Positions 4,966-44,299 of a stretch of DNA of 64,000 nt are shown piece after piece. The notes under the pieces were generated by a model, which was not told the origin of the DNA, did no database searches, and saw nothing but the letters and a program-made list of their open reading frames with translations. The DNA comes from Clostridiaceae bacterium HFYG-1003 (lineage in GTDB: Bacteria > Bacillota > Clostridia > Clostridiales > Clostridiaceae), in assembly GCA_024579835.1 (NCBI GenBank), contig CP102060.1, forward strand, positions 1,488,001 through 1,552,000, given 5' to 3'. Position 1 is the first letter of the stretch; each line of letters opens with the position of its first letter. Position numbers and translations under genes: made by a program.

Positions 4966-4968
4966 GGC

Positions 4969-5607
4969 TTACTCCAGGTAGCTCAGGCCTTCAAGAACCT
5001 GTGACTTCTTGAGCATGCCCTGCTGATAGATATGGATCTGACCTTCCTCATCGACGAAAATTGTGGTGGGAATGCTGCTGATCTCAAGCATTTGGGCAAA
5101 ATCCATATCTTCATCGTACAGCATGGTGGTGAACTCAAGGTTATTATCCTTCAAAAATCGATCTGCATTTTCCCTGGTCTCCAGTCCACCCTGGATATTT
5201 ACCATGACGATTTGATAGTCATCCCCGGCTTCCCGGTCCAGTTCCGCAAAATCCGGCATCTCAGCCTTGCATGGTCCGCACCAGCTGGCCCAGGCATTGA
5301 TAATGGTCTTTTTTCCGCGGAACGAGGACAGCTTCACTGTGTTGCCCTGAGCATCATAGACTGTTGCATCGGGCAGCATGACCGTTGGACGCTCTCCGGT
5401 CGAACCCGTAGGCTGAGTAGAAGCTCCTGTTGCCGGCGGGATTGTAGCCGCTGACGGCTGGGTCACATTCGGACCCGAGGTTGTTATATTCCCGGCCACC
5501 CCTTCCAGAGTTCCTTTTTTCACGTTTGCGTCATAAACGAGTTTCAGGCCTCCCAGAATGGCGATAAAAACAATAATCGCCAGAATTGATTTGATTTGCC
5601 TATTCAT
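4969..5607 (-). CDS. membrane-anchored TlpA/ResA-like thioredoxin
   Basis: 212 residues. An uncleaved N-terminal signal anchor (about residues 7-24) is followed by a Thr/Pro/Gly-rich linker and a thioredoxin fold with active site W-C-G-P-C (Cys110, Cys113) in NAWASWCGPCKAEMPDF and a cis-proline site ISSIPTTIFVD. It reduces disulfides outside the membrane using electrons passed by CcdA. The start is set by AGAAGGAGA about 9 bases upstream. It is the first gene of the tlpA-ccdA pair. Confidence 0.9.
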   Translation of the reverse strand: MNRQIKSILAIIVFIAILGGLKLVYDANVKKGTLEGVAGNITTSGPNVTQPSAATIPPATGASTQPTGSTGERPTVMLPDATVYDAQGNTVKLSSFRGKKTIINAWASWCGPCKAEMPDFAELDREAGDDYQIVMVNIQGGLETRENADRFLKDNNLEFTTMLYDEDMDFAQMLEISSIPTTIFVDEEGQIHIYQQGMLKKSQVLEGLSYLE

Positions 5608-5678
5608 GATGGTGAATCTCCTTCTGACTCCGTCGGTAATCCATTCATTCTTAATTCCGGGAGTCTTTCTTTCCTCCT

Positions 5679-5706
5679 ATTATACCAAAATTTGATTGCA
5701 TCAAAT
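5679..5706 (-). promoter_or_regulatory. tlpA-ccdA promoter with palindrome in the spacer
   Basis: Minus-strand TATAAT (5684-5679) lies about 72 bases before the tlpA start. Directly upstream is a perfect palindrome ATTTGAT-TGC-ATCAAAT (5690-5706), which covers most of the -35 to -10 spacer. The -35 hexamer is poor. The palindrome may be an operator; the binding protein is unknown. Confidence 0.5.
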
Positions 5707-5746
5707 TGATCTGCCGGCCTTTCACCATGAAAGTTCACGCAACGTA

Positions 5747-5796
5747 TACAAAACCCCCTGTCAGATCGGAAACATTTCCAGACTGACAGAGGGGTC
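5747..5796 (-). terminator. transaldolase terminator
   Basis: On the minus strand, CCCCTCTGTCAG pairs with CTGACAGGGGG (one bulge) around a loop of about 19 bases and is followed by TTTTGT. It starts about 15 bases past the transaldolase stop. Confidence 0.75.
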
Positions 5797-5809
5797 TCAG
5801 ACTGATGGA

Positions 5810-6457
5810 TTACAGGTTTTTAACGCCTTCCCAGTCTTTCAGGAACCGTTCGATTCCAGACGTGGTCAGCGGATGGTTCAGTGATTCCATGAGAACTTTA
5901 TAGGGAACCGTTGATATATCAGCGCCAGCCAGTGCTGCCTGGGCGATATGACGGCGATTGCGGATCGAAGCCGCAATAATCTCGGTATCGATATCGAACA
6001 TGTTGAAAATAGTGGCGATTTCTTCAATGAGGAGAACGCCGTCTATGCCCATATCATCGACACGGCCGATGAACGGAGAAACGTAGGCGGCACCAGCACG
6101 GGCAGCTGCCAGAGCCTGTTCGGCGGAGAAGACCAGTGTTACATTGACCTTGATGTTCTCTTTCTTGAACTGATGAGTCGCCTTTAAACCTTCTGCCGTC
6201 ATCGGAACTTTAATGACGATATTAGGATGGATTTTAACCAGTTCCCGGCCTTCCTTCAGCATTCCGTCTGCCTCGAGTGAGACTACTTCCGCTGAGATGG
6301 GTCCATCGACCAGTTCGGTAATTTCCTTAATGACATCTTCGAATTTTCTGCCTTCCTTGGCGATCAGGGAAGGATTGGTGGTGACGCCAGAGAGCAGGCC
6401 GAGCTCTGCTGCCTTGCGGATTTCTTCAACGTTTGCTGTGTCTATAAAATATTTCAT
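5810..6457 (-). CDS. tal: transaldolase, short TalC/Fsa-type
   Basis: 215 residues, the usual size of the small decameric transaldolase / fructose-6-phosphate aldolase family. The N-terminus [13 protein letters not shown] supplies the Asp of the TIM barrel, [13 protein letters not shown] is the phosphate-site signature, and the Schiff-base lysine is Lys83 in NIVIKVPMT. The enzyme moves a dihydroxyacetone unit between sugar phosphates in the non-oxidative pentose phosphate pathway; true transaldolase and F6P aldolase activity cannot be told apart by eye. Ribosome site TGGAGGT precedes ATG. It is a single gene with its own terminator. Confidence 0.92.
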
Positions 6458-6600
6458 AGCTACCTCCAGATTAGATCATTTTTTTCCAATAACATCATAC
6501 CATATTCTCTTTCATAGTCGAGAGGAAATCCTTCGATCCCGAACAGAGCCGCCTTGCCGGATGGCTGTCCCTGGCGATTCATGGCAGCGTGGGCAAAAGC

Positions 6601-6632
6601 AAGGAAACCAGGAGGATTCCCGGTTTCCTTAT
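6601..6632 (-). terminator. PFOR terminator
   Basis: Minus-strand AAGGAAACC and GGTTTCCTT form a 9-bp stem around a 12-base loop, followed by GCTTTTGC. It is placed about 17 bases after the PFOR stop. Confidence 0.72.
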
Positions 6633-6648
6633 TTGACTTATTCAGGGT

Positions 6649-9600
6649 TTATTTGTCTGTTCCGGCATGATGTGTCGGAGCAGCCTCTTCCCCTTCCAGA
6701 TTGTCGTTGTTTTCAGCCTTGGGCACGTCCTGACCAGCTTTGGGAGCTGATTCCGGGCTTGCTACCGCAGATGCATGAACAACCGTTTCAACCGGTTTGT
6801 CTTCGCTCTTTTTCAGCTCTGGCGCAACAGCGTATTTGGAGAAATCCATTTCTGTTAAGCGAACATAGCTGTCTCTGCGTTCCCGTGCGTCCTGTTCGGT
6901 CTTGGCGAACAGCGCTTCTGCTTCTTCTGGGAATGCTTTGAGCAGGGAAGCGTAGCGAACTTCTCCCATAAGGAAGTCTCTGAATGGCATTTTGGGTTCT
7001 TTGGAATCCAGTGTGAACGGATTCTTGCCCTGATCCTTGAGGGTCGGGTTGTACCGGTAGAGTACCCAGTAGCCGGATTCAACGGCGCGTTTGGTTTCTT
7101 CCTGGCTCATGCCCATACCGTTCTTGAGACCCTGGTTGATACAGGGAGCATATGCGATAACCAGTGACGGTCCGTTGTATGCTTCTGCTTCCGTGATGGC
7201 CTTCATCGCCTGGTTCTTGTCAGCGCCCATACCAATCTGAGCAACATAGACATAACCATAGCTCATGGCCATCATGCCGAGATCCTTCTTCTTGGTCCGT
7301 TTTCCGGATGCTGCAAACTTAGCGATTGCCGCAGTCGGAGTGGACTTGGAAGACTGTCCGCCGGTGTTGGAGTAAACTTCGGTATCAAGAACCAGAACAT
7401 TGACATCCTCACCGGAAGCGAGCACGTGGTCCAGTCCGCCGTATCCGATGTCATAAGCCCATCCGTCTCCGCCGAAGATCCATTGGCTCTTCTTGGACAT
7501 GAATTCTTTGTTCTTGTAGAGGAACTTCAAGGTCTCGTCATTGGAATCCTTGATGAGCGGCAGGATTGCATTCTTGGCAGCTCTGGATTCATCGGCCTTG
7601 CTGTAGTTTGCCAGGAAGTTCTCGAAGGCAGCCTTCAGTTCGCCTTCTGCCTTGCCTGATGCGAGGTAAGCTTCAACCATTCCCTTGATCCGTTCTCTCT
7701 GCGCATTATAACCCAGGTACATGCCAAGGCCATATTCCGCGTTGTCTTCGAACAGAGAGTTAGCCCATGACGGACCTTCTCCAAGGTGGTTGGTGGTGTA
7801 AGGAGTTGCCGGTGCGGAAGCTCCCCAGATGGAGGTACAGCCGGTGGCGTTGGCAATCATCATGCGTTCGCCATAAAGCTGGGTAACAAGCTTGACATAA
7901 GGAGTTTCTCCACAGCCTGCGCAGGCGCCGGAGAATTCCAGAAGCGGCTTCTCGAACTGGGATCCCTTGAGAGTCATCCGGTTCATCGGATTCTTCTTAG
8001 GAGCCAGGCTCATTGCGTAATCCCAGTTTGCCGTTTCATGCATCTGAGATTCGATTGGCTTCATGATCAGAGCTTTTTCCGGTGCGGGACAAACCTGAGC
8101 ACAGTTTCCGCATCCGGTACAGTCGAGGACTGAAACCTGGATCTTGAAGTCAAGACCTTCGAAGGCCTTTCCGCCCATTGCTTTCTTGGTTGCAAATCCT
8201 TCCGGTGCGTTGGCTTTTTCTTCCTCGCTTACCAGGAATGGACGAATGACAGCATGCGGACAAACATAAGCACACTGGTTGCACTGGATACAGGCATCGA
8301 TCTGCCATTCAGGCACATTGACTGCAATTCCGCGTTTTTCGAAGGCAGCAGTTCCCTGCGGGAAGGTACCATCGGCGATATCGGCAAAAACTGATACCGG
8401 GAGGTTGTCGCCTTCCTGAGCATTCATTGGAACTAGAACCTTGGAGATGAACTCCGGAACTTCTGCCTTGGCGGCAGCATCATCCGGCAGGTTCTTCCAC
8501 TCCGGCTTGATTTCAATCTGAACCAGAGCGTTTACACCCTTGTCAATGGCTTCATTGTTCATGTTGACGATCTTTTCGCCCTTCATGCCATAGCTCTTGA
8601 CCACAGAGTCTTTCAGATAACGCACGGCATCTTCAACCGGAATAACGTTTGCCAGCTTAAAGAATCCAGACTGCATGATCATGTTGATGCGGGTTCCAAG
8701 GCCGATTTCTTCAGCAATGGCCTGGGCATCGATGATGTAGAACTTAGCGTTCTTTTCAGCCAGGGTTCTCTTCAGTTTGTTCGGCAGCTTGCTTTCAACT
8801 TCTTCTGCTGCCCAGGGAGAGTTCAGCAGGAAGGTTCCTCCGTCCTTGATGCCCTTTAACAGGTCATACTTGTTAACATAGGAAGGATTGTGGCAGGCAA
8901 TAAAATCAGCCTGCTGGATCAGGTATGGTGCCCGAATTCTGTTCTTTCCGAATCTGAGGTGGGAAACCGTAATACCGCCAGATTTCTTTGAGTCATAGGA
9001 GAAATAACCCTGTGCGTACAGATCGGTATGGTCACCGATGATCTTGATGGCGGATTTATTAGCGCCAACCGTTCCATCGGATCCAAGACCCCAGAATTTG
9101 CACTGTACAGTGCCTGCCGGAGTGATATTAACTTCTTCTGCGGTCGGCAGTGAAGTAAAGGTAACATCATCAACGATACCTACGGTAAATCCGTTCTTCA
9201 CTTCGTTGCGCTTGAGGTTATCGAATACGGAAATGATCTGGCCCGGGGTCACATCCTTGGATCCCAGTCCATAGCGTCCGCCAACAATTTCCGGCCGATT
9301 CTCAACATCGTAGAAAGCGGTGCGGACATCCAAATAAAGGGGTTCGCCGTGTGCGCCTGGTTCCTTTGTCCGATCCAGAACTGCGATCTTCTTGGCAGTC
9401 TTTGGCACGACATCCAGGAAATGCTTCACTGAGAACGGACGATACAGATGGACATTGACCAGTCCAACTTTTTCACCCTTGGCTACGAGGTAGTCTACAA
9501 CTTCCTCAGCCGCGTCACAGACAGATCCCATAGCGATAATGACATTTTCTGCGTCTGCTGCTCCATGATAGTTGAACAGACCATAATTTCTGCCGGTTAC

Positions 9601-10353
9601 TTTGCTGACTTCATGCATGTAGTTCTCAACAATGGCTGGAACTTCATTGTAGTACCGATTGGAAGCTTCTCTGCCCTGGAAATAGATGTCCGGGTTCTGA
9701 GCGGTTCCTCTGGTGACAGGGCGTTCCGGGTTCAGAGACTTGGAACGGAATTCCTGAATCTTGTCCCAGTCAACCATTTTGGCTAATTCTTCATCAGTCC
9801 AAACTTCGATCTTCTGAACTTCATGAGAGGTACGGAAACCATCAAAGAAATTCAAAACCGGAAGGCTGGCCTTAATCGCCGTCAGATGAGCTACTGCGGA
9901 GAGATCCATGACCTCCTGAACACTGGATTCAGCCAACATGATAAATCCGGAAGCTCTGGCTGCCATGACGTCCTGATGGTCGCCGAAAATCGACAGTGCA
10001 TGGGCTGCCAGTGCTCTGGCCGCAACATGGAATACACCGGGAAGCAATTCACCGGCAATCTTGTACATGTTGGGAAGCATCAGCAGAAGTCCCTGGGAAG
10101 CTGTGTATGTGCTGGTCAGAGAACCTGCCTGCAAAGAACCGTGAACTGCTCCGGCGGCTCCTGCTTCGGACTGCATTTCCACGACTTTTACGACCGTGCC
10201 GAATAAGTTCTTTCTTCCTTTGGAGGCCCATTCGTCTACTGACTCAGGCATTGGGGAAGACGGTGTGATCGGATAGATCGCAGCTACTTCTGAAAACGCA
10301 TATGATACGTGAGCAGCAGCGGTATTTCCATCCATGGTTTTGATTTGTCTCAT
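6649..10353 (-). CDS. nifJ: pyruvate:ferredoxin (flavodoxin) oxidoreductase
   Basis: Single-chain PFOR of 1234 residues that oxidises pyruvate and CoA to acetyl-CoA and CO2 while reducing ferredoxin. Start ATG at 10353 (MRQIKTMDGNTAAAHVSYAF) is preceded by AGGGAGAG; an upstream in-frame ATG at 10446 would add 31 off-family residues. Order: pyrimidine-binding domain (IYPITPSSPMPE), CoA domain, gamma domain (KFWGLGSDGTVGANK), two 4Fe-4S motifs (CIQCNQCAYVCPH and CTGCGNCAQVCP), proximal-cluster cysteines (GACAGCGETPY), and TPP site (GGDGWAYDIGYGG, SNTGGQSSKSTP). The last 50-60 residues are an unusual Ala/Glu/Pro-rich tail after the normal family end. Monocistronic. Confidence 0.96.
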   Translation of the reverse strand: MRQIKTMDGNTAAAHVSYAFSEVAAIYPITPSSPMPESVDEWASKGRKNLFGTVVKVVEMQSEAGAAGAVHGSLQAGSLTSTYTASQGLLLMLPNMYKIAGELLPGVFHVAARALAAHALSIFGDHQDVMAARASGFIMLAESSVQEVMDLSAVAHLTAIKASLPVLNFFDGFRTSHEVQKIEVWTDEELAKMVDWDKIQEFRSKSLNPERPVTRGTAQNPDIYFQGREASNRYYNEVPAIVENYMHEVSKVTGRNYGLFNYHGAADAENVIIAMGSVCDAAEEVVDYLVAKGEKVGLVNVHLYRPFSVKHFLDVVPKTAKKIAVLDRTKEPGAHGEPLYLDVRTAFYDVENRPEIVGGRYGLGSKDVTPGQIISVFDNLKRNEVKNGFTVGIVDDVTFTSLPTAEEVNITPAGTVQCKFWGLGSDGTVGANKSAIKIIGDHTDLYAQGYFSYDSKKSGGITVSHLRFGKNRIRAPYLIQQADFIACHNPSYVNKYDLLKGIKDGGTFLLNSPWAAEEVESKLPNKLKRTLAEKNAKFYIIDAQAIAEEIGLGTRINMIMQSGFFKLANVIPVEDAVRYLKDSVVKSYGMKGEKIVNMNNEAIDKGVNALVQIEIKPEWKNLPDDAAAKAEVPEFISKVLVPMNAQEGDNLPVSVFADIADGTFPQGTAAFEKRGIAVNVPEWQIDACIQCNQCAYVCPHAVIRPFLVSEEEKANAPEGFATKKAMGGKAFEGLDFKIQVSVLDCTGCGNCAQVCPAPEKALIMKPIESQMHETANWDYAMSLAPKKNPMNRMTLKGSQFEKPLLEFSGACAGCGETPYVKLVTQLYGERMMIANATGCTSIWGASAPATPYTTNHLGEGPSWANSLFEDNAEYGLGMYLGYNAQRERIKGMVEAYLASGKAEGELKAAFENFLANYSKADESRAAKNAILPLIKDSNDETLKFLYKNKEFMSKKSQWIFGGDGWAYDIGYGGLDHVLASGEDVNVLVLDTEVYSNTGGQSSKSTPTAAIAKFAASGKRTKKKDLGMMAMSYGYVYVAQIGMGADKNQAMKAITEAEAYNGPSLVIAYAPCINQGLKNGMGMSQEETKRAVESGYWVLYRYNPTLKDQGKNPFTLDSKEPKMPFRDFLMGEVRYASLLKAFPEEAEALFAKTEQDARERRDSYVRLTEMDFSKYAVAPELKKSEDKPVETVVHASAVASPESAPKAGQDVPKAENNDNLEGEEAAPTHHAGTDK

Positions 10354-10496
10354 GTCTGTAATCTCTCCCTTACATGAAATTTTTTTGAAATTCCCTGATT
10401 CCGGCGGACAGCTCAATAATAAAACAGCTGGCACGGGATCACTCATTTCAATGATACACGATTATTTTGTTATAAAAAAACGTCTCCGTCTTTATA

Positions 10497-10524
10497 ATTA
10501 TATACTATTGTTAATAAAATGCAA
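10497..10524 (-). promoter_or_regulatory. PFOR promoter
   Basis: Minus-strand TTGCAT (10524-10519), 16-bp spacer, TATAAT (10502-10497), giving a start near 10490 and a leader of about 135 bases. Confidence 0.65.
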
Positions 10525-10657
10525 CAGATTGGCCTGCCTCAATTAAATCGATTTACATCGACTGAATCATTGGTCCGTGCAGAAAACAGCCCAAAATCTC
10601 CCGAACCGGAACATCACGCGTTGATTTAGTTCACAATTCTGTTCAAATTGTCAGAAC

Positions 10658-17763: not shown

Positions 17764-20700
17764 TCATTGTCTGTCCGGATTCATCCGCTCGGACGGTATT
17801 TCCGAAACGGGATTAGAAATCCTGGGCATAATCTGACGAATCAGGCCCTCACTGGTTTTTTCCAGCACATCGGTCAGAATCCCGAAGTTAATGACAGCTT
17901 CGAGAAGATGCTCATTGTCAACATTGAGCTGGGGATGTCCCAGCCGTTCGGCCGTCTGGCGGATCAGTGACCGCTCAGAATGAGGTTCCGGCAAGCCATC
18001 CTTGAGGGCGGCCAGGATTTCCTCCGGGGCGATATCCGCCAGCTGCCGGTCCGTGTCATCGGGCAGAGTCCTGCGGTACTGGTCGAATTCGGCAGGGCTG
18101 ATGTTCTGCGGCCAGTACACCGGCATATCTCCGGATCTTGTCGTGACCGGTCGAATGGTATTGAGGATCAGCTCAACCTGCTTTTCCATTTTAGGAGTAA
18201 CCCGGCTCAAGTCATACAGAGCACGGGCTCGTTTGGCCAGTAATGATCGCGGAATGGGCCCCTCGGTGTCTATCATCAGTTTTAGTTCAGCCGCGATTGT
18301 CGATGCGTTGTTCACATTCAGGAAGTCATCCATCATCAGTTTGCGCTGTTTCAGATCATGAGGAACATAGGGGGTCTGACGGGTGACAGGAGCCAGATTC
18401 TTCGGTTCAGGCGAAACATGAGACTCCTGCGGCTCTGCTGCCAGAAGATCCTGAGCAGTTTTTACAAGGTCATCAATTACTTTCACTTCGTTATCCAGCC
18501 AGTCCATGGCATAAACCCGCCGGATCTGCCAGCCCAGTCCCTTTAATACAGAATTTTGCAGAATTTCCCGATCATAGGCCGCATCGGCTTCCCGGAAGGA
18601 TTCTCCGCCGCACATAATACCCAGCAGGAACCGGCCGGAATCCCGGGGATCCACCAGGCCAAGATCGACTTTAAACCGGGAGGTTCCGATGGAAGTTTCC
18701 ACTTTCCACCCGCGCTCCCGCAGCCGTTCGGCGATCTGATCGTTCAGATTTTCGATTTCGCTTTGATGCTTCAGATCCGACAGGCTGAGCGTTCGACTGC
18801 CCTTCTGGGCAAATTCCAGAAATGCTTTCAGTTCACGGACACCACGGGCGGTGGTATCTGAAACCTGGAAACCAGCGGGATCAATATTCGTAAATATAAT
18901 CATTTCCTGCCGGGAGCGCGATACCGCGACATTGAGGCGGCGCCAGCCACCCTCCTGATTCAGCGGGCCGAAATTCATCGTCAGGCGACCGTCCTCATCC
19001 GGTCCGTAACCGACAGAAAACAAAATGACATCTCGTTCATCTCCCTGAACATTTTCCAGATTCTTGATGAAGAGGGGCTCGGGGAGGTTCTGTAGAGCCT
19101 GTTCCAGGGATTCATCCGCCCGCGTCCGATCGTTCAGTGTTTTTTCAATCAGATTCTGCTGAACGGCAGAGAACGTGACAATTCCGATGGAACGCCGGGC
19201 TTGAGATGGATCATTGACGCGTCGGATCACTTCATCCACAATTTCCACTGCTTCCTTGCGATTGACTCTCTCCCCTCCCCGCTCATAGATGCCGTCATTG
19301 GTTCTCAGACTGACCTTGGAGACCATGTCATCCGGTGAAGGATAAGTATAGAGGCGGCCGTCGTAAAAATTCCGGTTTGAGAAGGCAATCAGGCTCTCAT
19401 GGCGTGACCGGTAATGCCACAGCAGGTAGCTTTCCGGCATGGAAAGGGCCAGGGCGTCTTCCAGGATGTTATCCAGATCCTGGAATTCTTCCGGTTCAGC
19501 AGAACCGTTGGACTGAGTCAGGAAAAAGCTGGTAGGGGGCAGCTGCTTCGGGTCACCCACAATGATAGCCGCCTTAGCGCGGCCCAAAGCGCCGATGGCC
19601 TCCGGGGTTGGGATCTGAGACGCCTCATCGAATACCACCAGGTCAAACAGATCCGCCTGAGGTTTGAGGTATTGCGCAACGCTCATCGGGCTCATCAGCA
19701 TGCAGGGAGCAATGCGGCGAAGCAGCGTATCGGTTTCAGCGAACAGATTGCGTATGGAAAGATTGCGCGCTCCGGACCGCAGTGCCCGCTGAAGCACGGC
19801 TATTTCCTTGCTGGCAACGGATTCCAGCACCAGATTGGGAACCTGCCCGGCCAGATGGAAATAGAGTTCTTTACGCTCGAGCCGTTCCAGTTCCGCCATC
19901 TGGTTCTGCAGCAGGGCTGCCTGTTCATCCAGACCGTATCCGGTGGTGTTTAATAAGACAGGTTCATTTTTCAACCGTTGGGTCAGCAGAGTGGTCACCA
20001 TGGATTTCCGGTACATCGAAATCAGTTCCGACTCACTGACTCGTCCCTGGTCATAGCTGGCAGCAAACGGCTGCAGGCCTGCTTCATCCGCCTGCTTTTT
20101 CGCCTGCCGGTACATCAGCCAGTCTCTCAGCCCATCCAGGGCAGGCAGCAGTTCGGTCAGTTTGCGCGAGAGGCGTTCGAAGTAATTTCCCTGGTAGCTT
20201 GCCAGTTCAGATTCCTCGAAAGCTGTCAGTTCAAGGAAAGACCGGATGGTCTGGCGGTTCTGATCGAGGGCCAGTTCATAGCGCTGAAGTTTTTCTTTCA
20301 TACCAGGCTGCTGCGCGGCATTAAGCAGCGCGCTGCGCTGAATGGAGGTGTCTTTAGTGGTCAGACATCGCTCCAGTTTGGGAATGATTTCGCCCAGGGA
20401 GGCGGCAGACAGGTCCCCTTTCACCCGGGTTTCCAACTGTCCCTGATCCTGTCGGACCTGGTCGCGCAGTGCCTGGTATTCTTTTAACTGAGACAGTACC
20501 GGGAGAATCTCTCCGGGGGCAATTTGTCCCTGGTTTGCATAAAGTGTCATTTCCTTTTCCACCGGATTCTTGCGGAACAGCTTGCCCAGAATCGTCTTTT
20601 GTTCGTACTGGGTGTAATCCCGTTCCAGCCGGTTGGGATCCGCATTGAGGAAGGACTCGCTGAATTTCTGCATCAGGCGCTGCGTGGAATCCGTCAGCCG

Positions 20701-23529
20701 GCTTTGCTTATCCCTCAGTTGAATCAGGGCGTCCCTCAGTTCGGAAGGGTCTGATTCCATTAAATGAGGATTCTGGTCATTCAGATCCACCAGAGCCTGC
20801 AAAGCCGGCAGCAGCTGTTCTGCCTGAAGCATGTCAGTCGGTGCCAGGTCGGCATTCGCCAGGATCAGTTCGCCCAGAGTCATCTGCAGGTCCGTCAGCT
20901 CGATGGTGCCGGCCTGGCGAATGGTTTCCTTCAAAAGCGGCGTATAGTCAATCGCACCAATTCCGCGTAGCGGGTGTCCATAGGGGCCTCCGGCATGGAC
21001 GCCGAATCGGGCCAGACTGGTCAAAGCGGTTTCATGGTCCTTCCGGCTTCCCGGCGGAACGATTCCCTGCAAGTCCACGGTCTTGGAAAAATCCCTCAAT
21101 TTGGAATGGTCACAGATAAGATCGTAGATGGAATAGCCGGATTCATCCTTGCGATACATTTTTTTTACGATTTCATTCAGGTCATTTTTGCGATTGCGGA
21201 CTTTCGTTTTTTCCGCTTCAAACGAGCCGTTCTTAGGAATCCGCTGAATTTTCATTGACTGCTCCAGCTGATCCAGCACAGCTTTTTTCCGGGCTTTATT
21301 GGAATGCAGCTCCAGACAGAATGAACCGATTCCAATCTGATTCAGCCGCTTTTCAACGACCTCCAGCGCCGCCATTTTCTGCGCAACGAACAGAACCCGC
21401 TGATCCTGCATCAGTGCATTGGCAATAATGTTGGTTATCGTCTGACTTTTGCCGGTACCCGGAGGGCCATGCAGAACGAAGGTTTTTCCGGCCTTGGCGG
21501 CCAGTACGGCCAGAGACTGGCTGGAATCAGAGCTGACCGGATATATCACGGTTTCACTGCCTCGTTCCTCTTCGATAAATTCCTCGGTTCGTTGGATGGG
21601 TTCAAAGGGGAATTCCAGTTTCCCGGAAAGCAGTGAGCTGACCATGCTGCTCTTTTTGAATTCCTCCATGTTTTGCGTCAGATCACTCCACATGATGAAT
21701 TTCGAGAAGGAGAAGAGACCCAGGACGGCGCTTTCTTTCACATCCCACTTCTTTTCTCTCATGATGGCACTTCTGACTTTGCTGAAGACCTTCAGAACAT
21801 CAATGGCATCGCCCTTCATGGGCAGGGGATCCAGTCCCTGAAGCAGAATGCCGAAGTCATTTTTGAGCATTTCAGTCAGTGTGACATTGAAGTGCCCTTC
21901 TTCTTCCCGTGGTCTCAAAAGGAGTCCGGATAAATGTCCTTTCGTCTCGCAGTCGACGGGCAGCAGAATCAGTGGTGCTTTCCGAAGCGTGTCCGGATCC
22001 TGCCTGGAGTACCAGCAGAGTTCGCCCAGTCCGACATACAGCGAACTGGCGCCGGTTTCTTCCAGACTGGCCCTGGCACCTTTGGTGAGCTTCACTCCCC
22101 GTTCATCCAGTGTCTCATCATCCAGCATGGTACGAATTCGGCCGGTTCGGTATTCTTCGAAAGCCAGTTTCTTCCAATGAGTCTCAACGGCGAGCGCGGC
22201 ATCCTGGGCGGGCAGCGGCGAAGTCTGTTCGTCGGCGGAAGCCAGGTTCCAGTCCTGGGGATAGTGCATGATGTTGAAGTCCTTCTCGGACATTAAGTCC
22301 AGCGAAAACTGCTCCAGGTCAGGCACGAGGAGTCGGAGTCCGCGATCCTCTTTAAAATTGATCAGCTGATTCCGCAGGGATAAATCCAGCAGTTTACGCT
22401 CCCAGACTTTCTGTCGCGGCAGCTTCGCGCTGGACACTCCCGTATCAGGTCCTGGCATGCTTAGCTCCTCTGGCAGGATGACCGCCGTCGAATCCGCCTG
22501 AGGTCTCGGGGCCAGAACGTATTTGCCCGCTTCCAGAATACGAACGGGAAGCGGATGAATTCCAACCAACCTGGATCGCTTCAGATCCAGGGATAAAACG
22601 AATCGGTCGGTTTCCTCCAGACGAACCTGAGCGGCCGAAAGCGCCTGATTGAAATCCCCTCCCGTCTCTGTAGCTGCCACAGGGTCCAGTACTGCAATCT
22701 GGTTCATGCCCCGGGCGATGCGTTTGGTAAGCGATGACAAGTCATAATTGACCGATTCAGGAAAAACAGATGGTTCCAGCCAAACCCCGATCAGGCAGGA
22801 GTCCTCCTGCAGGATGATCAGCGGGTTCAGTCCGGCTGCCTCCAGAACAGACGCAAACAGGAGTGTCAGATCCATTCCGTCGGCATAACCTTTTTCTGTG
22901 ATCTCATCGACGAGGCGAATGCGCTTCCCGGCGCGAATAAAATCAGGACCAGGTGCGATGTAGCGTATGCCCATCTCTCGAATCGCAGTAAACAAAGCAG
23001 ACAGCTGCTTTAGCACCACGTTGGGATCCATGGTGTTGTAGCCGGACAGTGTTCCATCTCCGGTCATCGCTTTCAGGTGGTCTCCCATCCGAGTAAGCAG
23101 GTTTTTGATCAGCGGATGATTCGGCATGGAATATGCTGCCAGGATTTCCGGCAGAGTTTCAAAGCCTGACCAGTCCTCATAGGGATGAAGGGTCAGGGAA
23201 TAAACTTCCTGATGTTCCAGCCCGGAAGCATTCAGCTGAAGGGTCATTTCCACCTTGACCGGCTCCGTCAGATCCAGGATATGCTGAGCTCCCAGCTCCT
23301 GTTTAAAATCTCCCAGATCGACACTTTTTCGGGCAGGCAGCCGTGGAATCGGTATGGTCACCGGTTCCATAATTGCTGGCAAAAAAGCAACACGAAGTTC
23401 CGCATTCGCAATTTCTTCTTCTCCATGATTCTCAATGTGAAGACGCCGAATGATTCTGGCTGAATTGACATACATGGCATAATTGACATGCTGTAAATAG
23501 TCCAGACTGAACCGAACACTCTCATTCAT
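17764..23529 (-). CDS. DUF4011-SF1 helicase-Vsr-like-DUF3320 protein (Hhe-like)
   Basis: Single protein of 1921 residues. Residues 1-350 include a beta-rich start and a transglutaminase-like region without a clear active site (GYADGMDLTLLFASVLEAAG). A DUF4011-like part follows (WERKLLDLSLRNQLINF, about 375). Superfamily 1 helicase motifs are complete: Walker A GPPGTGKSQT (688-697), Walker B VVFDEASQ (1298-1305), GDPKQLPP (1325-1332), YRSRHESLIAFSN, ENVQGDERDVI (1492-1502) and RRLNVAVSRSR (1530-1540). A coiled region lies between RecA parts. A PD-(D/E)xK/Vsr-like fold spans about 1593-1690 and DUF3320 is C-terminal. This architecture has been linked to phage defence (Hhe, DUF4011-helicase-Vsr). 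In the nuclease, the usual GIECDG reads GIMCGG. TGAGG precedes ATG. Confidence 0.88.
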   Translation of the reverse strand: MNESVRFSLDYLQHVNYAMYVNSARIIRRLHIENHGEEEIANAELRVAFLPAIMEPVTIPIPRLPARKSVDLGDFKQELGAQHILDLTEPVKVEMTLQLNASGLEHQEVYSLTLHPYEDWSGFETLPEILAAYSMPNHPLIKNLLTRMGDHLKAMTGDGTLSGYNTMDPNVVLKQLSALFTAIREMGIRYIAPGPDFIRAGKRIRLVDEITEKGYADGMDLTLLFASVLEAAGLNPLIILQEDSCLIGVWLEPSVFPESVNYDLSSLTKRIARGMNQIAVLDPVAATETGGDFNQALSAAQVRLEETDRFVLSLDLKRSRLVGIHPLPVRILEAGKYVLAPRPQADSTAVILPEELSMPGPDTGVSSAKLPRQKVWERKLLDLSLRNQLINFKEDRGLRLLVPDLEQFSLDLMSEKDFNIMHYPQDWNLASADEQTSPLPAQDAALAVETHWKKLAFEEYRTGRIRTMLDDETLDERGVKLTKGARASLEETGASSLYVGLGELCWYSRQDPDTLRKAPLILLPVDCETKGHLSGLLLRPREEEGHFNVTLTEMLKNDFGILLQGLDPLPMKGDAIDVLKVFSKVRSAIMREKKWDVKESAVLGLFSFSKFIMWSDLTQNMEEFKKSSMVSSLLSGKLEFPFEPIQRTEEFIEEERGSETVIYPVSSDSSQSLAVLAAKAGKTFVLHGPPGTGKSQTITNIIANALMQDQRVLFVAQKMAALEVVEKRLNQIGIGSFCLELHSNKARKKAVLDQLEQSMKIQRIPKNGSFEAEKTKVRNRKNDLNEIVKKMYRKDESGYSIYDLICDHSKLRDFSKTVDLQGIVPPGSRKDHETALTSLARFGVHAGGPYGHPLRGIGAIDYTPLLKETIRQAGTIELTDLQMTLGELILANADLAPTDMLQAEQLLPALQALVDLNDQNPHLMESDPSELRDALIQLRDKQSRLTDSTQRLMQKFSESFLNADPNRLERDYTQYEQKTILGKLFRKNPVEKEMTLYANQGQIAPGEILPVLSQLKEYQALRDQVRQDQGQLETRVKGDLSAASLGEIIPKLERCLTTKDTSIQRSALLNAAQQPGMKEKLQRYELALDQNRQTIRSFLELTAFEESELASYQGNYFERLSRKLTELLPALDGLRDWLMYRQAKKQADEAGLQPFAASYDQGRVSESELISMYRKSMVTTLLTQRLKNEPVLLNTTGYGLDEQAALLQNQMAELERLERKELYFHLAGQVPNLVLESVASKEIAVLQRALRSGARNLSIRNLFAETDTLLRRIAPCMLMSPMSVAQYLKPQADLFDLVVFDEASQIPTPEAIGALGRAKAAIIVGDPKQLPPTSFFLTQSNGSAEPEEFQDLDNILEDALALSMPESYLLWHYRSRHESLIAFSNRNFYDGRLYTYPSPDDMVSKVSLRTNDGIYERGGERVNRKEAVEIVDEVIRRVNDPSQARRSIGIVTFSAVQQNLIEKTLNDRTRADESLEQALQNLPEPLFIKNLENVQGDERDVILFSVGYGPDEDGRLTMNFGPLNQEGGWRRLNVAVSRSRQEMIIFTNIDPAGFQVSDTTARGVRELKAFLEFAQKGSRTLSLSDLKHQSEIENLNDQIAERLRERGWKVETSIGTSRFKVDLGLVDPRDSGRFLLGIMCGGESFREADAAYDREILQNSVLKGLGWQIRRVYAMDWLDNEVKVIDDLVKTAQDLLAAEPQESHVSPEPKNLAPVTRQTPYVPHDLKQRKLMMDDFLNVNNASTIAAELKLMIDTEGPIPRSLLAKRARALYDLSRVTPKMEKQVELILNTIRPVTTRSGDMPVYWPQNISPAEFDQYRRTLPDDTDRQLADIAPEEILAALKDGLPEPHSERSLIRQTAERLGHPQLNVDNEHLLEAVINFGILTDVLEKTSEGLIRQIMPRISNPVSEIPSERMNPDRQ

Positions 23530-36894: not shown

Positions 36895-36930
36895 CCAAAA
36901 AAAGAAACCCAGCCTCACAGCTGAGCTTCC
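36895..36930 (-). terminator. terminator of the rubredoxin-like gene
   Basis: Minus-strand AGCTCA-GCTG-TGAGGCT hairpin followed by GGGTTTCTTTTTTT. It lies directly after the stop at 36936. Confidence 0.7.
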
Positions 36931-36935
36931 ATATG

Positions 36936-37325
36936 TTATCCTCTTTTCTTGAACCATTCCTCTCTGGAAATGAAAGTCATCGCGCCGCAGGCTGGACATT
37001 CTTCCGGAGCCTGGTCAGCAAAAGTTACCAGCCGGCAGGAATTGCAGCGGTACATGTTACCTGCATCATTCATCTGCTCTGCATCGGGATCATACTCAAC
37101 AAAGATGTTATGTCCTTTGGCCTGGCACTCAGGGCAGGTTTCAGGCTGCGTTTCCGATTCATAAATAAATCCACAGTAAAGGCACAGCCAGCTCTTGGTG
37201 TTTTCATCCAGCGAACCGTCTGATTCAGCAAAGACTTCCGCTCCGGCACCGCATACGGCGCATACTTCAGGTGCAGTTTCCCCTTCTGCGATATAACCGC
37301 AGATTTCACATTTCCATTTTTTCAT
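36936..37325 (-). CDS. protein with three tandem rubredoxin-like metal knuckles
   Basis: 129 residues made of three repeats, each with two CxxC pairs: CEIC/CAVC (residues 6-25), CLYC/CPEC (about 48-67) and CNSC/CPAC (about 94-113). Each repeat has the W/Y-x-C-x-x-C-G-Y/F-I-Y spacing of rubredoxin or rubrerythrin tails, with an intervening P-E-x-C. Repeats are shorter than true rubredoxin. It probably binds iron or zinc and may carry electrons near IOR or in oxygen defence; this is inference. Good GGAGG site and its own terminator. Confidence 0.8.
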   Translation of the reverse strand: MKKWKCEICGYIAEGETAPEVCAVCGAGAEVFAESDGSLDENTKSWLCLYCGFIYESETQPETCPECQAKGHNIFVEYDPDAEQMNDAGNMYRCNSCRLVTFADQAPEECPACGAMTFISREEWFKKRG

Positions 37326-37424: not shown

Positions 37425-39716
37425 TTACAGGATATTTAGCAAATCTGCCAGAGACCGATCCAAGGTTTGCGGATCCTTTATCCCAACGATGCGCGATGCC
37501 AGGTTTTTGGCAATAATATCTGGTGTTTCCGGGAAATTCCAATGGTCCTTCCCGATATTAAATGCTGTAATACGACTTGATTTGCTCAATATCCCTACTG
37601 TTTCGGCTAATGGGATCCGCACCGCTTCCGGAATGAAAGCATTCTTAAAGTCATCCGGCCCGGCCACTGACAGGAAGTACGGCTCGTAGTCTGTAGCGAT
37701 ATAGAGGATTGGGGTCATCATGCTGAAAACTTTCAGCAGATCGACATAAGCCCGGTTTAAATCCCGATCCTGGACTTTCCCTTCCAGAATCATCGCAAAC
37801 AGTGTCATGTCTGTCTTAAAGGACCGGCAATTCGTCATGAAGGCACGATGAACTTTTAATGCTTCCAGGAGAAGCCTCTTGCGCAGATCGTTATATTCCT
37901 CGCTCAGCCACACTCCCTGATCCTGACGCAAGTTCTCCCGAACCAGCCGATGCAGGATTTCTTCATCAGTAAATGCTTTGCCGTATTTGCCCCGGTACTG
38001 GGCAATGCTGCGGGCTGATTCTTCCAACTGGCTCTGTCTGGCTTTGTAATCCTCTGTTACTGAATCAAACTCACTTTTCAGGTTATGATATTCACCCAGT
38101 ACCAGATTCAACTCGCGCTTTTCCTCGTCGATGGAGTTCACGATCTTCTTCTGTTCCTCTTTCATGGACTCATACTGAATGACTTTCGCGTCATTGCGGA
38201 ACAGGAAACGGAAGAAGCGACGGAAAAATCCCATATCGATCTCGAGCTCTTTCATTGAAACATCATGCTCTTCCAGCAGACTCTGGCGCTTCTGCATTTC
38301 ATTTTCCTTGAAATCCCGGGAAGCTTCACTCGACTCAATTCTTCCTTTCAGCTCCTCAAGTCTCATGGACGCGGCGGAACCTTTTTCCAATAGTTCCTGA
38401 TAGCCAAAGGTCGTTCGATACTCTTGCATGATCTCTTCCCGCTTGGCTAAAACCTCATCCAGAACCTGCCGAAATTCCTTTCTGGTATTCTCCCAGTCAT
38501 GAGATGCATCATTCAACTGGCGTGCCAGCCCATTCCCGGTTCCTTTGTATACATCCTTCAAAAAGCGGATCAGATCTCGATTTGAAGTGAATTTCTGAAC
38601 CATATAGGGTTTGTCGTATGCCGTGAAATAAGGAGTTGGCTGAACAGCGGTCATTACCTGGCCGATGGATTTCTCCAGCTCCCGAATAAAGGCGGTATCT
38701 TTTCCAAACATCAAGACCGTCTGATTGAGGAGGCGCTCTTCCGGCATATGATAGGCGGTCGCAAATTCTTTATTGTCCTTGAAACTTACTTCATGAAACG
38801 CGTCATCCGGCTTTGAGTAGCGGGTCATCGCCGCCGCCCGTTCAATCAGACTGGCTGACATGATCTCTGTCATCAGGCGAATTCCCAGGCTTTGATCGCG
38901 AATCATGCGGTAGAAGCTGAACGGCTTTTCCCGTCCGTTGACAGCCTGATTCAGAACTAGCTGCTCCCTGAGACTGATCCCGTCGTGTCCGGGCCACATA
39001 CTCAATGGATTCTTTTCCGGTGAAGTCATTTCCTTGACCCGTTCAGGTGTATAATCTTCTTCCAGCGGGCTGGCCATCTTGAGTACTTTCGAGATGTTCT
39101 GAGCCATCAGCTCCACTCTTGGCGCTGCCGTCTGATCCTTGATCATCTCTTCCAGATTCATCAGATGTCCGTCTGATACATGATGGCTGAGGATATCCCT
39201 CTCCTGAATCAGGCAGTGGAATTCCGGCAGATACTCTGAGAGATTCAATTTGTTGACGACATAATTAAATATTTCCTTCAACTCACGGTATTCCAGTTTT
39301 CGATCAAACGTCACCATGAATTCATCCATGTCATCATTCGCGCGGTTCAGAAGACTTAAATCAAGCTGTGTAGCAGAATTTCGTTCCTTCAGCATTTTAG
39401 CCAGTGCAAACAGCACCGGGGAGATAAAGAAGCTGTTGCGGATGTAGTACCCCCGCTTATCACTTCGAATCATGCACAAATAAGTCTTGCTTTGAATTTC
39501 CTGAGCCTCTTCACCCATGGCTTCGACCAGAAGTTCTGTGTCCGTGACACCAAGGTAAATATTATAGCCATTGTTGGATTCTCCGCCAAAAATGCTTTCA
39601 TAGGGAACATAAGTGCGCTGATCGGTGACGATGTGATCACTTTTCTTGGGCGCTGGATACTCTGGTCGGTACAGGATGAAATTATAAAAGTATTCAAGTA
39701 ATTTTCTTGTTTCCAT
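37425..39716 (-). CDS. SF1 helicase-like protein lacking ATP motifs and RecA2
   Basis: 763 residues, intact frame, GGGGAG 9 bases before ATG. By eye it follows a family of large bacterial SF1 (AAA_11/AAA_12) helicases segment by segment. MWPGHDGISLREQLVLNQAVN (240-260) matches their WP..PL..QQ.AVN entry, and IERAAAMTRYSKPDDAF (291-307) matches the helix after Walker A. A long coiled coil spans about 400-580. LRKRLLLEALKVHRAFM (611-627) matches the helix before motif II. But the Walker A site reads RMIRDQSLGIRL, the LLIDEAGQ site reads AFIPEAVR (693-700) and the GDPLQ site reads GKDHW (722-726). It stops there, with no RecA2. It cannot be a normal ATPase. Partner and role are unknown. Confidence 0.78.
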   Translation of the reverse strand: METRKLLEYFYNFILYRPEYPAPKKSDHIVTDQRTYVPYESIFGGESNNGYNIYLGVTDTELLVEAMGEEAQEIQSKTYLCMIRSDKRGYYIRNSFFISPVLFALAKMLKERNSATQLDLSLLNRANDDMDEFMVTFDRKLEYRELKEIFNYVVNKLNLSEYLPEFHCLIQERDILSHHVSDGHLMNLEEMIKDQTAAPRVELMAQNISKVLKMASPLEEDYTPERVKEMTSPEKNPLSMWPGHDGISLREQLVLNQAVNGREKPFSFYRMIRDQSLGIRLMTEIMSASLIERAAAMTRYSKPDDAFHEVSFKDNKEFATAYHMPEERLLNQTVLMFGKDTAFIRELEKSIGQVMTAVQPTPYFTAYDKPYMVQKFTSNRDLIRFLKDVYKGTGNGLARQLNDASHDWENTRKEFRQVLDEVLAKREEIMQEYRTTFGYQELLEKGSAASMRLEELKGRIESSEASRDFKENEMQKRQSLLEEHDVSMKELEIDMGFFRRFFRFLFRNDAKVIQYESMKEEQKKIVNSIDEEKRELNLVLGEYHNLKSEFDSVTEDYKARQSQLEESARSIAQYRGKYGKAFTDEEILHRLVRENLRQDQGVWLSEEYNDLRKRLLLEALKVHRAFMTNCRSFKTDMTLFAMILEGKVQDRDLNRAYVDLLKVFSMMTPILYIATDYEPYFLSVAGPDDFKNAFIPEAVRIPLAETVGILSKSSRITAFNIGKDHWNFPETPDIIAKNLASRIVGIKDPQTLDRSLADLLNIL

Positions 39717-39956
39717 TTAAATGATCTCCCCTATGATTTCAATATGATTTGATTATAACATTGAATGAAACCCGAAACCCCACTCTTTTCCACTAATGTC
39801 GCAAAGTCCAGTGATTCAGCAGAATTCACACTCTGCAATATCCGTTGATACCATGTTTTTATTACGACGGCGCATGATCTGTGTTAAAGTATAGTTAATG
39901 AATAATCAAACAGGGATTTGAATGAAAATCCAATAACGAACATGGGGGAATGTTTG

Positions 39957-40595
39957 ATGAAAAAGGTCGAATTAATCAATAAATTGAAAGAATTGATTTT
40001 TATCGTGGAGATGATCCTGGCGGTCATGATTTTGTTCGGTGTGCTGGCCGGTCTGGTTTCTTCCGTCCTGCAGATCCCACATATTCTCACCACCACCAGA
40101 GAGCAGTTCTATAACAGCTTCAAGAATTTTTTGGGCAACGCATTGCTCCTCATTGTCGGAGTTGAGTTAATCCGCATGCTTATCACCCATACAACCCGGG
40201 CCACGCTGGAGCTGATCATCTTCGTCATTGCCCGGAAACTGCTGATCTATACGGACTCCATGATGGACATTTTCCTCGGTACCATCGCCCTGGCCATCGC
40301 CTTCGCCACCATAAAATATCTCCTGCCAACCTGGGATAAAGGGTCCTGCAATCCGATTTACCCAGGGTCCATGAAGATTCGGGATATAAAATCAAAGCTC
40401 GGCGTTGAAATCCCGGTGGAGGGTGACCAGACACTGGAAGAGTTCATCCATAAAATTCGGACCAGTAAGGAACCGCTCCACAGCGGAGAAAAAATTGATG
40501 CCGGTCCGGTCAACATCATTCTGCACCGGATCAACTCTCAGGGTGAAATTGTTGACGTCGAGATCTCCGATTCAAACTTTGTCAGCAATGACTGA
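39957..40595 (+). CDS. PsiE-like membrane protein with CorC-type C-terminus
   Basis: 212 residues from ATG 39957 (GGGGGAA 7-8 bases upstream; an earlier ATG at 39918 lacks a site). About four membrane helices occupy residues 10-135 in the pattern of phosphate-starvation-inducible PsiE proteins. The last 70 residues (TLEEFIHKIRTSKEPLHSGE, VNIILHRINSQGEIVDVEI) look like the transporter-associated CorC/HlyC domain. The function is unknown. It is divergent from the helicase-like gene, with a TATAGT -10 at about 39890, and has its own strong terminator. Confidence 0.65.
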   Translation: MKKVELINKLKELIFIVEMILAVMILFGVLAGLVSSVLQIPHILTTTREQFYNSFKNFLGNALLLIVGVELIRMLITHTTRATLELIIFVIARKLLIYTDSMMDIFLGTIALAIAFATIKYLLPTWDKGSCNPIYPGSMKIRDIKSKLGVEIPVEGDQTLEEFIHKIRTSKEPLHSGEKIDAGPVNIILHRINSQGEIVDVEISDSNFVSND

Positions 40596-42753: not shown

Positions 42754-44299
42754 GTTAGTGTAAAGTTACTGTAGGTCGAAAATGAAAGAGAATAAGCCCA
42801 AGTGCTAGAAAGTTAGTAACAACCAAAAACAAACTACACGAAAGGACTTATTCTCATGCCTATCTTAACAGATTTCAACTCAATGTTCACCACTCTCAGA
42901 CAAGGTTTTGATTCAAGAATGGCAAGCGGTACTCTCACCATGGATCAAGTGGTACAGGAGACTCACGAGCTGACGGATCGGATTGCCCGTGAGCAGATCC
43001 AGGATTATGTTCAGGTACTCGATGAGCGCCTGAGGAACTCACAGTTACGGAAAAAAGACTACACCATCGAACGGCGCTATCAAACAAAAACCATCGCTAC
43101 TACAGCCGGACCTGTGGTCTTTGGCCGGACGTACTTTCGGGATAAAAAGACCAATCACCATGTGTGTCTGGTGGATCGTCTTCTGGGCCTTGAGCCCCAT
43201 CAGAGAATCAGCCGGGAACTAGCCTCGTGTCTTCTCTCCAGTGCTAAAGATATTTCTTACCAGGGGACGGTGGAGCGCTATGCAAGCAGCGGAATTACCA
43301 GCCGCACTACGGTAATGAATCTGGTCCATCGACTGGGGAACATTGAGTCTTCTGAGGGACCCCTGCCTCAGAAAAAAGTGGTATCTCGGATCTATATTGA
43401 GGCCGATGAGGATCATGTAGCTATGCAGGACGGTTCCAATCAGCAGATGCGGCTGATCTACGTCCATGAGGGGCAGCAGAGTGTCGGGAAGAGACGCAAG
43501 GCCTTAATGGGTGTACGTCGATTTGCAGGCTTCTACAAGGGCAACTCGGATGAACTGTGGTACGAAGTGTTCGATTACCTGAACTCGGCTTATGAAGTGG
43601 ATAAGATCGAGGAAATCTCCTTATCAGGGGATGGGGCGTCCTGGATCAAGATGGGTGCCCAGATTCTGCCTCGATGCAAGCTCTATCTGGATAAGTTCCA
43701 CCTGGAAAAGGCCCTGCGCCAGGCGGCAACGCCGATTGATTCCTACAAAGGGACAAAGGATGAATATTACTGGTACCTCAAAGACGCCATCAGCATGGAC
43801 TCCCTTGAGGACATCAACACATTCTTCGAATCAGCAGCGGGATTGCCGCTTAAAAAGACCCAGGAAAAGAAGTTAGGCGAGATGAAAACCTATCTTTTGT
43901 CCAACTGGGAATCGATCCAGAACGCGGCCAAGTCGGGCTATCAGGGCTGCAGTGCGGAAGGGCATGTCAGTCATGTGCTTTCCTCACGGTTATCTTCACG
44001 CCCGATGGGGTGGAGCACAGTAGGTGCTGAGAATATAGCGCGCATGCGAGTTTTCGTCCTCAATGGCGGGGATCTCATGGGCTACTTCGCTGCCAAAGAG
44101 AAAGAAAAGAAGAAGGAAGCCCGACTTTTGAGGCTGGAAAAACGGATCGTGAAGAAGAGCCGGGTCTACCCGGTAAAACAAGGTTCAATCAGCTATGCAA
44201 CGCCTCATTTTGGGTGGTATAAATCGTAAAACCCGGGCTACTTGGAATCCGCACGGCAGGCTTATTCAGTTTTTGAACCGAAAGTAAGTTGACACTATC
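42754..44299 (+). mobile_element. intact ISLre2-family insertion sequence
   Basis: 1546 bp. Left end GTTAGTGTAAAGTTACT and the reverse complement of the right end GATAGTGTCAACTTACT are imperfect terminal repeats. A 9-bp target duplication AACTGTTCC flanks it exactly (42745-42753 and 44300-44308). One transposase gene inside is uninterrupted. Clean ends and duplication indicate a fairly recent insertion, placed between the selenoprotein promoter and the queT promoter without breaking either. Confidence 0.93.
42856..44229 (+). CDS. ISLre2-family transposase (UPF0236)
   Basis: 457 residues, full length for the family. N-terminal helical DNA-binding part, then GPVVFGRTYFRDKKTNHHVCLVD and RISRELASCLLSSAKDISYQ, then a DDE-type core (YIEADEDHVAMQDGSNQQ, LSGDGASWIKMGAQILPRCK, LDKFHLEKALRQA) and the late basic tail. 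Start ATG follows GAAAGGAC. No frameshift or stop. Confidence 0.93.
   Translation: MPILTDFNSMFTTLRQGFDSRMASGTLTMDQVVQETHELTDRIAREQIQDYVQVLDERLRNSQLRKKDYTIERRYQTKTIATTAGPVVFGRTYFRDKKTNHHVCLVDRLLGLEPHQRISRELASCLLSSAKDISYQGTVERYASSGITSRTTVMNLVHRLGNIESSEGPLPQKKVVSRIYIEADEDHVAMQDGSNQQMRLIYVHEGQQSVGKRRKALMGVRRFAGFYKGNSDELWYEVFDYLNSAYEVDKIEEISLSGDGASWIKMGAQILPRCKLYLDKFHLEKALRQAATPIDSYKGTKDEYYWYLKDAISMDSLEDINTFFESAAGLPLKKTQEKKLGEMKTYLLSNWESIQNAAKSGYQGCSAEGHVSHVLSSRLSSRPMGWSTVGAENIARMRVFVLNGGDLMGYFAAKEKEKKKEARLLRLEKRIVKKSRVYPVKQGSISYATPHFGWYKS

Follow-up and report, generated by a model that had tools for sequence, protein, structure and literature searches.

The locus considered here raises the question of what a bacterial cell may gain from a helicase gene whose ATP site and half of whose engine have disappeared. 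It lies in Clostridiaceae bacterium HFYG-1003, within the 64,000-nucleotide stretch of contig CP102060.1 that was analysed as a whole (the window), and consists of an open reading frame of 763 codons plus stop at positions 37425..39716 of the minus strand, recognized by the frame itself, its orthologues, and its hhalign match to intact helicases. A preliminary description, made from the DNA letters, had reported an intact frame of this length at exactly this position, without naming the strand; the frame starts with ATG, carries GGGGAG shortly upstream, and is free of internal stops. Its product is termed the pseudohelicase in the following.

Lost Motifs and Domain Layout

The helicase motifs are recognizable only as altered remnants, all encoded on the minus strand. 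Behind the N-terminal region (residues 1-232, 39021..39716), which is 65-74% identical in the orthologues, the former P-loop (motif I) site at residues 266-281 (38874..38921) reads FSFYRMIRDQSLGIRL and is aligned to FSVNGPPGTGKTTL in intact relatives. The former motif Ia site (residues 335-340, 38697..38714) reads LMFGKD against a VASNNNAAVENI-type segment; in the alignment, motif Ia and the TTFAS segment are conserved in the intact relatives and replaced in the pseudohelicase. A coiled-coil hairpin, predicted as two helices of residues 408-501 and 510-581, would be inserted in RecA1 (residues 408-581, 37974..38495). At the former motif II (Walker B) site, residues 695-698 (37623..37634), IPEA is aligned to IDEA, and at the former motif III site, residues 722-726 (37539..37553), GKDHW is aligned near GDPLQ. 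The remnants DQSLGIRL (residues 274-281), IPEA, and GKDHW, from which the preliminary description had concluded that the ATPase motifs are altered, are thus all present, and the pattern [AG]xxxxGK[ST] does not occur in the whole protein. Walker A, Walker B, and motif III are absent from all three orthologues, none of which has a Pfam AAA match.

The protein ends with a tail (residues 720-763, 37428..37559) that does not include a recognizable RecA2 domain: the hhalign match to helicases stops at residue 719 of 763, in line with the earlier claim that the protein ends before RecA2. RecA2 as a separate gene next door was considered and rejected, since the gap of 99 bp to the downstream rubredoxin gene in the window is too short. 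A C-terminal KDPxxLDxSLAD resembles the motif VI segment KSPNILNVAATRA. When an internal deletion leaving motif VI was compared with plain truncation after motif III as the origin of the tail (300 shuffles per pair), the best Z values were 3.6 for motif VI and 3.8 for the region following motif III, with most pairs below 2.

Family searches with the pseudohelicase matched nothing in PADLOC and PHROGs, gave a weak match under the curated cut-off in Pfam (E 1.6), and in NCBIfam a best E of 0.026 with 13 bits against a cut-off of 402. The protein stays unseen in these collections because helicases are recognized by their motifs. The pseudohelicase and its orthologues have an acidic pI of 5.1-5.5 and a net charge between -18 and -31, compared with -8 to +8 in four intact relatives.

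Descent from UPF1-Like SF1 Helicases

A profile of the three orthologues aligned by hhalign to five Walker-intact helicases gave a probability of 99.6% and an E of 1.4e-24, with columns 47-719 lying collinearly on 41-757. Before the P-loop site, WPG...(S/T)LREQ...NQ lines up with WPS...SLMQQ...N of the intact relatives, and behind it ERAxAMxRYSxPDDAF lines up with RAxxLxxYxxPxDAF. The observation that segments flanking the motifs still match SF1 helicases was therefore correct, and so, judged from hhalign, orthologues, and trees, was the proposal that a helicase of the defence or repair type had lost its ATPase motifs. At the level of sequence comparison, descent of the pseudohelicase from large UPF1-like SF1 helicases (AAA_11/AAA_12) is confirmed.

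Profile searches found matches in 8 of 206 genomes of the family (three of these being the genus), 9 of 225 of the order, 3 of 391 in the class sample, and 5 of 398 in the phylum sample; a match in G737 (E 1.3e-6) was left out of the relatives compared. Closest among the intact relatives are those of genomes G752 (173 bits), G935 (152 bits), G922 (145 bits), and G277 (two ORFs, 145 and 97 bits). Walker A is found in all 20 intact-type genes compared (13 genomic and 7 from viral contigs), the intact motifs of the latter being partly a selection effect, because the patterns by which they were found include motif II or the P-loop. The patchy occurrence of intact relatives in other families of the class and phylum would fit horizontal transfer. 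In G277, the closest-clade helicase is split into two overlapping ORFs (locus L027, 4875-6374 and 6292-7986, minus strand); near it, at 9703-10623 on the minus strand, is a 306-amino acid ORF that has no PADLOC match and contains an RNPPAH motif, presumably reminiscent of HEPN domains.

In a maximum-likelihood tree, the window clade groups with G138, V32, G752, G922, G935, and G277 (UFBoot 100), and in a larger one with G277, G752, G922, and G935 (UFBoot 100); its stem measures 2.1-2.3 substitutions per site. Since the clade is nested among Walker-intact helicases, the losses are derived and predate the split of the three species. An intact paralogue, sought with one intact helicase (G049) in the three genus genomes, one of them 87% complete, was not found in any close form; the matches were the pseudohelicase itself and weak ones (E 0.006-0.35) to other frames. 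Among mobile elements, a phage search for relatives of the pseudohelicase gave no match, a plasmid search gave two weak ones, at 19.4% and 21.2% identity, in genes that carry an AAA or helicase annotation, and tblastn of viral contigs yielded no relative of the window family or of the second Walker-less family, described below.

Conservation and Selection

Homologues with the same losses were found: full-length, stop-free orthologues of 763-764 codons are present at one and the same locus in all three genomes of the genus, window included. The two others (loci L013 and L014) encode proteins 67% and 46% identical to that of the window, and all three have no P-loop, (I/M)PEA at motif II, DHW(N/S)FP at motif III, and a shared end point. 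A recent truncation or frameshift is excluded by these orthologues. Gene order is common to the three genomes: MATE is followed by the pseudohelicase and then by the three-rubredoxin gene, and in 2 of 3 a PsiE-like gene intervenes between MATE and pseudohelicase; MATE and, below, IorA are names that we presume for these neighbours.

Divergence between the window and L013 is 0.257, 0.174, and 0.623 at codon positions 1, 2, and 3. Against the two orthologues, dN amounts to 0.246 and 0.500, and synonymous sites are saturated. By these values, the frame is under purifying selection, though it changes faster than the neighbouring genes; window and L014 are 45.9% identical in the pseudohelicase, 57.5% in the PsiE-like protein, 61.2% in the rubredoxin protein, 71.1% in MATE, and 82.3% in IorA. 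Together with the intact frames in three species, these values bear out the earlier statement that selection maintains the frame. A decaying pseudogene or a sequence error, which the missing motifs and domain, the long stem branch, and the fast change relative to MATE and IorA might bring to mind, is hardly credible, given that the frame of 763-764 codons is open in each of the three species, that synonymous sites are saturated, and that 293 of 763 residues are invariant among the three orthologues.

The invariant residues are unevenly spread. Among the longer blocks, residues 1-160 are conserved best, with 97 of 160 invariant in the three orthologues, and the C-terminal 28 residues are also conserved (14 of 28). 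The former P-loop stretch, residues 260-283, retains 2 of 24, compared with 14 of 27 in the flank 233-259 and 18 of 27 in the flank 284-310. For this contrast within 233-310 the hypergeometric probability is 1.6e-5, a value obtained from three sequences with stretch boundaries set by eye around the motif. Only two 24-residue windows, both in the coiled coil, hold fewer invariant residues. In five aligned intact relatives the same stretch is the invariant VNGPPGTGKTTL. By this pattern of conservation, the pseudohelicase has been remodelled rather than merely freed from constraint.

Relation to Mokosh and CoCoNuT

The intact relatives match Pfam AAA_11/AAA_12, and their best PADLOC match is MkoC of Mokosh type II (PDLC03924), with E values of 1e-45 to 2e-70. 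This match reaches to about position 950 of the 1136 positions of the model, and its unmatched end would be the expected site of the PLD domain; a PLD-like domain is listed for Mokosh I and II in the table of a review (PMC10952713). The window protein itself has no match to the PADLOC MkoC model, while its orthologues match weak coiled-coil-type models only, and no Pfam match to a PLD domain is seen in the pseudohelicase. It shares with MkoC-like helicases a collinear course over residues 47-719 and a coiled-coil insertion between motifs Ia and II, and differs from them in the lack of the Walker motifs, motif III, RecA2, and the PLD domain. Since the MkoC match, ATPase motifs, RecA2, and PLD are all absent, the protein is not filed as Mokosh; in its sequence relationships, it is MkoC-derived.

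In G752, the Walker-intact MkoC-like helicase and a separate PLD-like gene just upstream of it lie at 4502-7579 and 7762-8838 of locus L056 (minus strand). The upstream gene has a weak match to DrmC (2.9e-6), and the pair may be a version of Mokosh II in which the otherwise fused parts lie on two genes.

Another known system with a comparable insertion is the UPF1-like CnuH of CoCoNuT, for which the accessible portion of PMC11090510 describes, behind Walker A, a large insertion that is helical and in part a coiled coil; its authors suggest contacts of the coiled coils with partner proteins. In the pseudohelicase, the predicted hairpin 408-581 likewise follows the Walker A position. CnuH differs, as far as that portion goes, in that it retains helicase motifs and works beside McrB/McrC homologues. 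Such homologues were not noticed among the ORFs listed around the pseudohelicase gene, part of which was searched against families.

Predicted Structure

The first, full-length model of the pseudohelicase was poor (pLDDT 67.2, pTM 0.57), and its matches were mostly coiled-coil, toxin, and dynein proteins, with Senataxin at rank 32. A second model, covering residues 224-763 and built with 17 sequences, reached a pLDDT of 85.5 and a pTM of 0.78, the model being biased by the intact helicases in the input alignment. Its strands 266-269, 334-338, 670-674, 690-695, and 713-720 lie at the positions expected for the RecA1 sheet. Among the top 50 Foldseek matches of this model, most were coiled-coil or helical proteins, dynein, and toxin complexes; DNA2, Senataxin, UPF1, and IGHMBP2 were also among them (E 0.038-0.15, probability 0.60-0.89). 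On the RecA1 fold, which the preliminary description had proposed to check by structure comparison, the outcome was mixed: weak matches to SF1 helicases were obtained, but no PDB match at E <= 0.001. VIA-align of the second model named no helicase among 50 rows, and comparison with the viral library gave one match at E <= 0.001, to an unnamed entry, and otherwise mostly SMC-like, endonuclease, and tail proteins. A sequence search of the PDB with the three-orthologue profile returned nothing relevant. The predicted structure would thus agree, weakly, with a RecA1 fold.

A Second Walker-Less Group

The MkoC model matched 48 stretches in 44 of 291 genomes of the class, and the 30 stretches that came as loci were checked. 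Walker A was found in 26 of them (18 at once, 8 with longer DNA), two are cut by contig ends, and two are Walker-less. The latter are standalone chromosomal genes of two species from another family than the window genus, G393 and G453, the sole genomes sampled from that family (L090 5296-6870 and L091 4936-6510, both plus strand). They encode proteins of 524 amino acids, 82% identical to each other, that match MkoC positions 206-720 at 5.7e-54. The P-loop reads FSVKYANTDIKLS or FSVKYSNTKAKLS, motif II DNAD, and motif III GKEE, and the protein stops before RecA2. It is thus as Walker-less and RecA2-less as the window protein, but does not have the N-terminal region of the latter.

The relation of the two groups was approached by trees and by profile alignment. 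In a first tree, which did not include close relatives of the 524-amino acid protein, both Walker-less groups were joined (UFBoot 100) on branches of 1.4 and 3.1. When viral-contig helicases were added, the 524-amino acid group moved to the intact V113-V117 (UFBoot 100) and the window clade stayed with its own intact relatives (UFBoot 100). A common origin of the two groups was rejected on this basis, and the joining in the first tree is taken as long-branch attraction; the branches are long, and the placement of both groups depends on sampling. By hhalign, the G393/G453 pair gave no significant match to the window clade (2.7%, E 0.017) or to the five intact helicases (5.9%, E 0.0064), and the ancestry of the 524-amino acid protein is read from its MkoC model match and the trees. 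Because each Walker-less group falls with different intact helicases, these placements suggest that the Walker site and RecA2 have probably been lost at least twice independently.

On a tentative view, which we hold with less than even confidence, pseudohelicases with a single RecA domain might be a recurrent, undescribed outcome of the domestication of MkoC-like defence helicases. In two or more clostridial lineages, RecA1 and the coiled coil would independently have been kept and the motor parts, ATP site and RecA2, shed, which would have left a remnant fixed on the chromosome as an ATP-independent sensor or scaffold.

Neighbouring Genes

Downstream of the pseudohelicase is a gene for a protein with three rubredoxin-like domains (36936..37325, minus strand; three stretches matched by Pfam RUBY_RBDX), followed by a terminator-like hairpin at 36903..36930 of the same strand found by consensus scan. 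Similar terminator-like sites follow the orthologous gene in L013 and L014, and none was seen between pseudohelicase and rubredoxin gene in the three species. The full-length rubredoxin protein occurs in 3 of 200 family genomes, all in the genus; in the other 19 genomes with a match, the alignment covers the first 38-53 residues only. Promoter-like sites stand directly before the rubredoxin gene in L013 (10/12) and L014 (11/12); for the window the scan lists none, with TATAAT conserved. The gene thus seems to own a promoter, and an operon shared with the pseudohelicase was considered but not adopted. Since it has its own promoter-like sites and the whole neighbourhood is syntenic, adjacency counts as weak evidence of partnership. 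The search for a fixed partner gene, proposed earlier, has therefore produced a genus-restricted neighbour as a lead, weakened by those promoter-like sites, and the three-rubredoxin protein may be regarded as the first candidate partner.

Divergent from the pseudohelicase, at 39918-40595 of the plus strand, is a gene for a PsiE-like membrane protein (Pfam PsiE, 24.6 bits with a cut-off of 23.9), which is present in L014 and was not seen between the genes in L013. A 457-amino acid ORF at 42856-44229 (plus strand) is presumed to resemble a transposase of the ISLre2/UPF0236 type. No defence-island setting was seen at the pseudohelicase locus. Elsewhere in the window, at 17764-23529 of the minus strand, a DUF4011 helicase of 1921 amino acids with an intact GPPGTGKS, an MTES_1575 nuclease domain, and a DUF3320-like end strongly matches the PADLOC candidate PDC-S37 (1072.8 bits) and Hhe, and is a candidate anti-phage gene. 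A 1893-amino acid frame in genome G001 was also matched by the intact-helicase query.

Proposed Role

ATP-driven movement is not expected of an SF1 helicase that has neither the P-loop lysine nor the motif II aspartate nor RecA2. The ancestor of the three clostridial species held an MkoC-like SF1 helicase of the UPF1 family, perhaps acquired horizontally, which lost its ATP site (motifs I, II, and III), motif Ia, and the RecA2 domain. The remnant would have changed fast for some time and has since then been under purifying selection. It would neither hydrolyze ATP nor translocate; what is left of RecA1 would, together with the conserved N-terminal region and the coiled-coil hairpin, form a non-catalytic scaffold or regulator of protein interactions, with the coiled coil as docking arm. 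A structural or regulatory role is probable because the ATP site and half of the engine were lost, yet the protein was kept intact in related species. With moderate confidence, the genus-restricted pseudohelicase is thus seen as an ATP-independent scaffold or regulator that would dock partners via its coiled coil and conserved N-terminal region, a reading favoured because ATP-driven movement is unexpected, the protein is acidic, and motif Ia is replaced.

Its main rival would retain contact with nucleic acids: in the manner of AddB, the inactive RecA1 body and the N-terminal region would bind a particular structure or sequence in DNA or RNA and pass a signal on to an enzyme that is active. Precedents exist, in so far as the available sections of the sources go, in AddB itself, a catalytically inactive SF1 relative that forms one subunit of AddAB, next to the active helicase AddA, and recognizes Chi via its ssDNA groove (PMC5180179), and in PriA of D. 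radiodurans, which binds DNA and DnaB and has no ATPase (PMC4504706). The helicase family to which the intact relatives belong also binds nucleic acids. In the pseudohelicase, however, motif Ia and the TTFAS segment are replaced, and RecA2, which normally supplies half of the binding groove, is missing. Acidity and the replaced motif Ia argue mildly against helicase-type nucleic-acid binding, although a protein that is acidic as a whole may still carry a basic patch for such binding; on balance, such a reader is considered rather unlikely. More improbable still would be a decoy or dominant-negative protein, a helicase mimic that soaks up a phage inhibitor or poisons helicase complexes of invader or host. 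The PADLOC MkoC matches give the intact relatives a defence-like character, and these relatives are found on plasmids, where 750 records gave a match, and in viral contigs, but the search with one intact query in the three genus genomes left only weak matches and no close MkoC-like helicase, and no setting of a defence island was seen at the locus. Conservation of DHW(N/S)FP, TDYxPY, and PEA in all three orthologues might also point to a new catalytic or metal site in these residues; with three sequences only, and with no enzyme family matched in Pfam, NCBIfam, PADLOC, or PHROGs, this is very improbable. Of the scaffold, DNA-binding, and regulatory roles suggested in the preliminary description, that of a scaffold or regulator remains the preferred reading.

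Inactive Helicases and Their Meaning

Inactive helicases with jobs of their own are already established. AddB is an inactive SF1 relative, as the window protein would be, the latter being distinguished by a single RecA domain. PriA of D. radiodurans and Utp25 resemble it in helicase fold or descent without working motifs and differ in belonging to other helicase families (PriA and DEAD-box, respectively); Utp25, according to the accessible part of PMC9539457, works with dispensable motifs and retains two domains. The novelty lies in the architecture with a single RecA domain, in the derivation from an MkoC-like helicase, and, probably, in a twofold origin. Among the papers listed on pseudohelicases and on inactive or degenerate helicases in defence, none describes such a protein, which may still be in print.

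Summarizing, if it holds true that two separate groups underwent the same losses, a motorless half-helicase would be useful in itself, and the general question of what the body of a helicase does for the cell without burning ATP would become testable. Should a partner be found, the pseudohelicase would rank with AddB and PriA among the motors of immunity or repair that have become regulators.
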